NCBI GenBank assembly: GCA_017456285.1
Contig: JAFTJQ010000030.1
Coordinates: 1-44,651, forward strand
Length of the DNA: 44,651 nucleotides
Direction: 5' to 3'
Source of the DNA: Lentisphaeria bacterium
GTDB taxonomy: Bacteria > Verrucomicrobiota > Lentisphaeria > Victivallales > Victivallaceae
The notes below the pieces were generated by a model. The model had not been told where the DNA came from. It saw only the letters and a program-made list of their open reading frames with translations, and searched no databases. A program made the translations under genes and the position numbers. Numbering within the stretch: the first letter of the stretch is position 1; each line of letters opens with the position of its first letter. Shown here piece after piece: positions 12,825-14,714 of this stretch.

Positions 12825-13151
12825 ATGAAAAAAATTTTGGTGCTTTTTGCTGTATTATCGGTAATCCTGTCAAGCGGCTGTGTCTCTCGTGACATCAATC
12901 AAAATTTGGCTAATGCACAGAAACTTCGCTGCGGCATGAGCAAGGAACAAGTGCTTGCCGTCATGGGTGAACCCCTGAAAAACCAGAAATTGGCAGATGA
13001 CAATAATTGGTATTACCGTGACCAAATTTGCAGTTTTGACTGGCAGGATACTGCTGATGAATGCATGATTTTGGTATTTGAAAATGATAAACTAATCGGC
13101 TGGGGCAGAGATTTCAATACTCGCAGAAAGTTCACTTCTCCTGTTGATTGA
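12825..13151 (+). CDS. BamE/SmpA-like small lipoprotein
   Basis: A 108-residue lipoprotein: signal peptide with lipobox LSSGC (Cys19). The body carries the SmpA/OmlA pattern, LRCGMSKEQVLAVMGEPL, followed by WYYRD and a final ILVFENDKLIGWG strand. BamE-fold proteins bind outer-membrane assembly machinery or envelope components. It starts 8 nt after the helicase stop and is probably the last gene of that operon. Whether it acts in the BAM complex is an inference. Confidence 0.75.
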   Translation: MKKILVLFAVLSVILSSGCVSRDINQNLANAQKLRCGMSKEQVLAVMGEPLKNQKLADDNNWYYRDQICSFDWQDTADECMILVFENDKLIGWGRDFNTRRKFTSPVD

Positions 13152-13184
13152 GCATAAAAAATGAAAATTTTATCGAAATTTTAT

Positions 13185-13212
13185 TTGCATTTTTGAGAAA
13201 TGATAATATATT
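13185..13212 (+). promoter_or_regulatory. Promoter of the trp leader-trpB unit
   Basis: TTGCAT (13185-13190), a 16-nt spacer and TATATT (13207-13212). The start of transcription would fall near 13219, just before the leader-peptide RBS (AAAGGA). Confidence 0.75.
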
Positions 13213-13238
13213 AAAGGCAAATAAAGGATTTTTTTATT

Positions 13239-13340
13239 ATGAAAGCAAGACAAACTAATTTTGTAAATCGTTGGTGGCGTTGGCGTAGTTCCGATGAAGG
13301 AGTTATGCTCAATTCTGCATGTCTTAATTTCAATAAATAA
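13239..13340 (+). CDS. trpL: trp operon leader peptide
   Basis: A 33-codon open frame with an AAAGGA ribosome site. Residues 11-16 read RWWRWR, so three of its codons are Trp (13272-13277 and 13281-13283), very unlikely by chance. It sits between a promoter and a strong terminator upstream of trpB, exactly as in transcription attenuation. Ribosome stalling at these codons when Trp-tRNA is low would open the hairpin 13283-13308 and allow the antiterminator. The peptide itself probably has no other function. Confidence 0.92.
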   Translation: MKARQTNFVNRWWRWRSSDEGVMLNSACLNFNK

Positions 13341-13402
13341 TCTCACAATAAAGACAGCAATTTAATAAGCCGTATTCCTTCAATCAGGAGTGCGGCTTTT
13401 TT
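13283..13402 (+). promoter_or_regulatory. Tryptophan transcription attenuator (1:2, 2:3 and 3:4 stems)
   Basis: Three mutually exclusive pairings are visible. The 1:2 stem pairs 13283-13292 with 13299-13308 (10 pairs, three wobble) and starts at the last Trp codon. The 2:3 antiterminator pairs 13293-13303 with 13374-13385 (11 pairs, one bulge). The 3:4 terminator pairs 13367-13379 with 13386-13398 (13 pairs, two wobble) and is followed by TTTTTT to 13402. This is the classical layout: high Trp gives termination, low Trp gives trpB expression. Confidence 0.9.
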
Positions 13403-13453
13403 ATTAACAATATAAATTACAAAAAAATAACATATAAAACAAAGGAATAAAAA

Positions 13454-14662
13454 ATGGAAAAATTAGATTTAACTCAAATGCCCGATGAAAATGGTTTCTT
13501 CGGAGAATTCGGCGGTCAATTTGTACCTGATCACCTGAAAAAAATTATGAATGACATCAATGATGCCTACGAAAAAATCATTAAAGATGAGAACTTTCAA
13601 AAAGAACTTGCTTCTCTCTACAAGCACTACGTTGGACGACCTTCGCCGATCTATCATGCTAAAAAACTCTCTGAAGCGGCAGGCGGAGCACAAATTTACC
13701 TCAAGCGTGAGGACTTGAATCACACCGGTTCGCACAAAATTAACCACTGTCTCGGCGAGGCTCTGTTGGCAAAATACATGGGCAAAACCAAAGTAATCGC
13801 CGAAACCGGGGCAGGTTCGCACGGTGCGGCTCTCGCCGCGGCTTGTGCTTTGGTCGGAATCCCCTGCGAAATTCACATGGGTGCAATCGACATTGAGCGT
13901 GAAGCCCCCAATGTTACTCGAATGCACATTTTCGGAGCAAAAGTTGTTTCAGTTACCCGTGGAACTCAAACACTCAAAGATGCAGTTGACAGTGCCTTTG
14001 AAGAACTTTTGCGTGACCCTGATAACTTTTTCTATGCAATCGGTTCGGTAGTTGGGCCGCATCCGTTCCCGAAAATGGTTCGTGACTTCCAAACCATGAT
14101 CGGCAAAGAAGCTCGTGAGCAGATGATTGAACTTACCGGACGGCTTCCTGATTATGCTGTTGCCTGCGTTGGCGGAGGAAGTAATGCTATGGGCTTATTC
14201 AATGCATTTTTGCTTGACGATGAGGTTAAGTTAATCGGAGTTGAACCGGGTGGGAAAGGTCTTGATACCGAATTCCATGCGGCGACGATGAATAAGGGAC
14301 GCAAGGGCATGATTCATGGCTTCAAGTGCTATGTGCTTCAGGATGAACGCGGAGAAGTTCTGCCGGTCTATTCAGTTGCGGCAGGGCTTGATTATCCGGG
14401 AGTAGGCCCGCAACATTGTTTGCTCCGTGACTTGAATCGAGTTCAGTACGAGAGCTGTACCGACCGGGAGGCGATTGATATGTTTATGAATTTGAGTCGC
14501 ATGGAGGGAATTATTCCTGCTATCGAGAGTGCCCACGCAGTTGCTTATGCGGTCAAATTGGCATCAACACTCCCGAAAGACAAAAATATCGTTGTAACTC
14601 TTTCAGGACGAGGGGATAAGGATATTGACGCCATTATCAAGGAACTCAACTTGAAATTCTAA
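13454..14662 (+). CDS. trpB: Tryptophan synthase beta subunit
   Basis: The PLP enzyme condenses indole with L-serine to give L-tryptophan. The 402-residue length fits TrpB1. Lys95 in the [11 protein letters not shown] motif binds PLP and GGGSNAMG (240-247) holds its phosphate; Glu117 in ETGAG is the catalytic acid region. AAAGGAAT precedes the ATG. It follows the attenuator and is closed by a terminator at 14681, so trpB is regulated alone. The partner trpA and the rest of the pathway are not in the window. Confidence 0.97.
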
Positions 14663-14680
14663 CTTTTAAGGTAAAAAATA

Positions 14681-14714
14681 AAGGCTATACGGAAAAATTC
14701 GTATAGCCTTTTTT
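14681..14714. terminator. Bidirectional terminator between trpB and the malic enzyme gene
   Basis: A perfect 11-bp stem (14681-14691 with 14700-14710) is flanked by a T-run on the plus side and an A-rich run on the other, so it can stop both convergent transcripts. Confidence 0.9.

Follow-up and report, generated by a model that had tools for sequence, protein, structure and literature searches.

A stand-alone trpB gene in a draft Victivallaceae genome (Lentisphaeria, PVC) is very probably controlled by a ribosome-mediated transcription attenuator that senses charged tRNA-Trp, judging from the sequence of its leader. The gene lies in the window, by which we mean the whole 44,651-nucleotide stretch analysed here (assembly GCA_017456285.1, contig JAFTJQ010000030.1). 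This reading is favored because all parts of such a switch are present and mutually exclusive, because the two alternative helices arose jointly in none of 2000 shuffles, and because the downstream gene matches the Trp codons of the leader peptide; it is favored further because the same architecture, with covariation, recurs in related leaders. Against it stand a covariance model of those related leaders, named R1, which does not match the window leader, the nearest TrpB relatives, which lack the leader, and a second, leaderless trpB copy in the same assembly.

Parts and folding of the trpB leader

Between a BamE-like lipoprotein gene (12825-13151, its NCBIfam match below the cut-off) and trpB (13454-14662) lie 302 bases. 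The features of the leader and its gene, all on the + strand, are as follows.

13184-13212, +: putative sigma-70-type promoter of the leader transcript, TTTGCA-17-TATATT, predicted by consensus scan (9/12)
13223-13228, +: Shine-Dalgarno-like AAAGGA of the leader ORF, read directly, with the ATG ten bases on
13239-13340, +: leader peptide ORF of 33 codons, MKARQTNFVNRWWRWRSSDEGVMLNSACLNFNK, stop included
13272-13283, +: regulatory codons W12, W13, R14 and W15, with Trp codons at 13272, 13275 and 13281
13280-13312, +: 1:2 hairpin (anti-antiterminator), arms 13280-13292 TTGGCGTAGTTCC and 13299-13312 GGAGTTATGCTCAA, p 0.001 in shuffles
13296-13308, +: region 2, the antiterminator (2:3) arm, partner 13369-13381
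13367-13381, +: region 3, the terminator 5′ arm (13367-13379) and region 2 partner (13369-13381)
13367-13405, +: intrinsic terminator (3:4) of 13 pairs with a 6-base loop and a TTTTATT tail
13441-13446, +: Shine-Dalgarno-like AAAGGA of trpB, read directly
13454-14662, +: trpB, tryptophan synthase beta subunit, 402 aa (NCBIfam TIGR00263, 570 bits, cut-off 392)
14681-14714, +: hairpin with T-run 3′ of trpB, the likely transcript end, read directly

Transcription is expected to start near 13219, and the promoter-like site by itself says little, with four such sites over both strands against 1.9 expected; related leaders share its TATATT hexamer, but closer to the ATG than in the window leader. 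The predicted leader ORF carries three Trp codons in four, and its motif TGGTGGCGNTGGCG occurs once in the whole window against 0 expected. The 1:2 stem begins at 13280, one base 5′ of the last Trp codon. A scan of 13100-13500 returned 13367-13398 as the only terminator-like site (0.1 expected), a hairpin of −19.6 kcal/mol. The antiterminator, formed by 13296-13308 with 13369-13381, contains 11-12 pairs and shares 13299-13308 with the 1:2 hairpin and 13369-13379 with the 3:4 hairpin, making the forms mutually exclusive. A first-pass annotation had described a 33-codon RWWRWR leader with a 1:2 stem starting at the last Trp codon, which holds up with shifts of one or two bases at most, and its mutually exclusive 11-pair antiterminator and 13-pair terminator with T-run are borne out by folding, pairing and shuffles; its overall proposal of a complete Trp-codon attenuator ahead of a solitary trpB in a likely PVC bacterium is likewise supported.

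The whole leader folded with a z of −4.5, equalled by 0 of 200 shuffles, and the 2:3 duplex reached −15.0 kcal/mol against a shuffled mean of −6.6, matched by none of 300 shuffled region-2 sequences. Under dinucleotide-preserving swaps, the 1:2 hairpin recurred with p 0.001 and the 2:3 duplex with p 0.01. Masking region 1, to mimic a ribosome on W15, switched the fold from 1:2 to 2:3 once region 3 had been made, with the eight outer antiterminator pairs at probabilities of 0.81-1.0, and the 2:3 form persisted until the terminator 3′ arm was nearly complete. When region 2 was masked, the terminator formed. With no mask, 1:2 and 2:3 each made up roughly half of the ensemble at the point where region 3 was made, suggesting that control may be leaky and that the off state probably needs the 1:2 hairpin to form first. 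An Rfam family was rejected as an explanation of the leader, the weak caiA and PyrR matches lying under the cut-off.

Taking these folds together, we propose that the leader ORF would be translated while RNA polymerase is still within the leader, after a start near 13219. If charged tRNA-Trp is scarce, the ribosome would stop at W12, W13 or W15 and cover region 1 (13280-13292), leaving region 2 to pair with region 3, so that no terminator would form and trpB would be transcribed. If tRNA-Trp is plentiful, the ribosome would pass the Trp codons and run on through region 2, masking it; behind the passing ribosome the 1:2 hairpin would re-close, allowing 3:4 to form at 13367-13398 and transcription to end near 13405. 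The leader ORF spans region 2 and has its stop codon (13338-13340) well 3′ of it, and as no ORF stop separates regions 1 and 2, the release step would be unlike that of E. coli.

Related Trp leaders in Lentisphaeria

The first-pass annotation had called such an attenuator unexpected in a PVC bacterium, a view that is not supported, as leaders of the same kind are widespread in Lentisphaeria. In many members of the class, a Trp leader peptide is encoded ahead of trpE, trpBA, lone trpB or trpB2-like genes, among them the lone trpB genes of loci L052, L056, L060 and L071 and the trpBA pairs of L024, L072, L077 and L080. The leader peptides at lone trpB or trpBA loci, for example MKINANIFGAFSGAWRWRWR and MKNSTGKILNLRSWRWR, each followed by a stop codon, are accompanied by terminators. 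Searching 78 family genomes with the pattern "TATATT ... ATG ... W-x-W-R" gave forward matches far above the reversed-pattern control, and the in-frame matches sit before trpE, trpBA, trpB or trpB2-like genes, adding leaders before trpE (L202, L206, L208-L211 and L213) and before TrpB2-like genes (L194, L205 and L212); TrpE and TrpB-like proteins at these loci were identified via NCBIfam. In most of the Lentisphaeria leaders found here, the ATG lies 6-10 bases past TATATT and the ORF ends directly behind the last W-R, and with this spacing the transcript would be leaderless or nearly so.

At E<=1e-6, the covariance model R1, built from 12 Lentisphaeria leaders, gave 52 matches, which fall in 46 of the 197 class genomes and are spread over three families, and those with readable downstream genes sit before trpE, trpBA or trpB2-like genes. 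Many pattern-search matches, together with R1 matches at E 0.001-0.01, were judged not to be leaders and were not counted. R1 has no match at the window leader, and its matches in the window lie elsewhere and look like chance. Two assemblies (G067 and G086; loci L202, L208 and L213-L215) hold more than one trpE-type leader each, in nearly identical pairs, which suggests duplicated trpE operons or mixed strains.

The alignment of the 12 leaders (171 columns) contains a 1:2 hairpin TGGCGG...CCGCC, a first terminator GGCGGAT...ATCCGCT-T(n) and a second terminator CCGCATTCCGG...CCGGAGTGCGG-T(n). Region 2 of this set, CCGCCGGAA, is complementary at CCGCC to GGCGG in the terminator 1 5′ arm and, through overlapping bases, at CCGGAA to TTCCGG in the terminator 2 5′ arm. 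Tandem terminators whose 5′ arms match one region 2 were present in L208, L213, L209, L077, L024 and other R1 leaders. Across the three helices, the 12-leader alignment held 31 cells with both partners changed, compared with 12 in shuffles; 36 model-aligned leaders gave 24 covarying pairs and 148 double-changed cells against 38 in shuffles, with slid controls dropping to 18-38 cells, the 36-leader alignment being structure-fitted. In stepwise folding of the L208 leader with region 1 masked, region 2 took the terminator 1 arm first and the terminator 2 arm later, and with region 2 masked both terminators formed. A stalled ribosome would, by this scheme, leave region 2 free to occupy first the terminator 1 5′ arm and later that of terminator 2, constituting a two-step gate.

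The window leader and the R1 set both have a W-R-rich leader peptide, a 1:2 hairpin placed at the last Trp codons and a terminator. R1 leaders, however, mostly carry two tandem terminators sharing the antiterminator strand and are mostly leaderless or nearly leaderless, with a stop right after the Trp codons, whereas the window leader has one terminator only, a Shine-Dalgarno sequence, an ORF extending across region 2 and 26 bases from the −10 hexamer to the leader ATG rather than the 6-10 of most others. The window terminator GCCGTATTCC...GGAGTGCGGC resembles terminator 2 of the R1 set, GCCGCATTCCGG...GGAGTGCGGC (L213, L077), and the start of the window leader, ATGAAAGCAA...TGGTGGCGTTGGCG, resembles that of L194. 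These likenesses in terminator and start are suggestive, though not proof, of shared descent. The window leader is of the same kind as the R1 set, a divergent version not classed as R1. We lean, with some reserve, towards an undescribed Lentisphaeria family of Trp attenuators with a single antiterminator strand that acts on both tandem terminators, first one and then the other. This family would control trpE operons, trpBA, trpB2-like genes and lone trpB, and the window leader would be a reduced offshoot of it, with one terminator and a role in indole salvage alone.

Host gene content, TrpB relatives and alternative explanations

The host assembly is a draft of 2.42 Mb in 92 contigs, 98% complete. 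No match was found in it for trpA (PF00290), trpF (PF00697), trpC (PF00218) or trpD (TIGR01245), while each search was positive in 14 of 14 control genomes; trpA does not adjoin trpB and was not found elsewhere in the genome. As the genome is a draft, the missing trp genes could in part be due to gaps. Because trpA, trpC, trpD and trpF were not found, the host TrpB probably makes Trp by condensing salvaged, imported indole with serine, and the switch would therefore tune indole salvage rather than de novo synthesis. A stand-alone TrpB joining indole to serine has been reported in a Chlamydia review (PMC3937554), and use of exogenous indole by TrpB in bifidobacteria (PMC11085991). An origin of the window contig from a stray strain was rejected, given a single-copy RecJ and a G+C content like that of contigs C9 and C18.

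By kinship and TrpB, the nearest named relatives are a Victivallaceae bacterium (L093) and Lentisphaerae bacterium GWF2_44_16 (L166, genome G030). The TrpB tree of the order has three groups, namely canonical trpBA, lone TrpB including that of two congeners, and a second lone-TrpB group including the window, whose TrpB this quick tree places with lone TrpBs of Victivallales (support 88-91). A recent transfer of trpB from Proteobacteria was considered, as the nearest named matches are proteobacterial, but is rejected by the tree. The two other species of the genus have a different lone trpB, 55-56% identical, without a window-type leader. Among the closest TrpB genes (71-74%), L002, L003, L035 and L037 have no leader, and L004 and L036 have an unrelated conserved leader ending TWFWG or TWLWA. 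This latter leader, MTKY..N.NSA.VS.R.F.VF.R.TW[FL]W[GA] followed by a stop, lies ~90-200 bases 5′ of trpB and has a hairpin on its last Trp codon; an intrinsic terminator was looked for there and none was found, and control may be of another sort. A further conserved mini-ORF, MLYGFFKRWR[TN]AP[EQ]RY and a stop, lies 150-250 bases 5′ of the lone trpB in L038 and L043; it has only one Trp codon, and no terminator is evident.

No close homologue of the window leader was found in the 78 family genomes. The first-pass annotation had also raised the prospect of the same leader at other trp genes of this genome, for which a DNA search yielded only a 51-base low-scoring stretch on contig C76. The second trpB copy of the assembly (G000) is spread over contigs C18 (L034:1-306) and C9 (L033:4313-5044), to be compared with window positions 13442-14679. 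It encodes an identical protein over the 346 codons covered, with 27 synonymous and 0 non-synonymous differences, and is preceded by a purF-like gene and a lipoprotein gene; the similarity of the two copies starts at the Shine-Dalgarno sequence and stops just past the stop codon. This copy may come from assembly or strain mixing. As for conservation of the second trpB site in the genus, the downstream gene turned up in only one of the two relatives, 44% identical and with other neighbours, which says nothing either way.

The hairpin at 13367-13398 might instead terminate the upstream lipoprotein gene, with the trpB promoter behind it and the small ORF arising by chance. That gene is co-directional, and no other terminator-like site was found between it and trpB; however, the hairpin stands ~215 bases past its stop, with a promoter-like site, a Shine-Dalgarno sequence and a WWRWR ORF in between, and the joint absence of 1:2 and 2:3 from the 2000 shuffles and the repetition of the arrangement before other trp genes of the class also argue against this origin, which we regard as improbable. 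About as improbable is a leader that senses something other than charged tRNA-Trp, for example free Trp or indole through TnaC-like nascent-peptide arrest, or slow translation of an Arg/Trp-rich peptide. The gene apparently serves indole salvage, and the leader is unusually long, with 18 codons beyond the last Trp, both of which would suit such sensing. Yet the start of the 1:2 stem at the last Trp codon is what stalling on Trp codons predicts, and related leaders keep W-x-W, vary the peptide around it (WRWR, WYWR, WFWR, WHWR, WWCWR) and end right after, indicating that the codons, rather than the peptide sequence, matter. By inspection the window leader is unlike TnaC, and its downstream gene is trpB, not tnaAB.

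Least probable of the alternatives is control through trpB translation, a protein or a T-box, with the terminator as a by-product. Swaps of mechanism between bacteria are known for the same genes, but neither the window leader nor any of the 20 related Lentisphaeria loci scanned gave a T-box or other Rfam family at the gathering score, and in the folds the leader was not seen to pair with the start of trpB.

Comparison with known attenuators

Ribosome-mediated attenuation is best documented for amino acid genes of Proteobacteria and Actinobacteria; PMC2965389 stated that, at its time of writing, no case beyond them had been demonstrated apart from the Firmicutes case it reported. The class-wide, covarying Lentisphaeria set would extend it to another bacterial branch. 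In the open-access literature, we found no article describing Trp attenuation in Lentisphaerae or Verrucomicrobia and none on tandem terminators with leader peptides, and only doubtful Chlamydia cases as PVC precedents. The predicted class-wide design, in which tandem terminators share one strand, would be new.

In Chlamydia, trpRBA uses trpB(A) for indole salvage, with Trp-sensitive attenuation proposed and a putative C. felis trpL containing WW (PMC3937554), while the putative C. trachomatis trpL was judged a poor attenuator, with Trp control exerted via the repressor YtgR (PMC7755916). Both systems belong to PVC bacteria, but the window leader is complete and the proposed model involves no repressor. 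The Sinorhizobium meliloti trpLE(G) attenuator follows the same logic, and its transcript begins at the leader ATG (PMC7298713), as the promoter spacing of most Lentisphaeria leaders found here suggests for them too; by contrast, the window leader has ~20 bases and a Shine-Dalgarno sequence before its ATG, and differs in gene and sequence.

With E. coli trpL, the window leader shares a short ORF with clustered Trp codons, exclusive 1:2, 2:3 and 3:4 helices and a terminator before a trp gene, although it scores only 17.5 bits (E 0.56) against Rfam RF00513 Trp_leader, below the gathering score of 41. It has W-W-R-W in 33 codons instead of the WW of E. coli trpL, and its stop codon lies beyond region 2 rather than between regions 1 and 2. 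Whereas E. coli trpL regulates an operon, the window leader would regulate one salvage gene, and it is a member of a known attenuator kind with an unusual target: a switch kept on a single salvage gene after apparent pathway loss, which would therefore sense Trp supply while the substrate is indole from neighbours.
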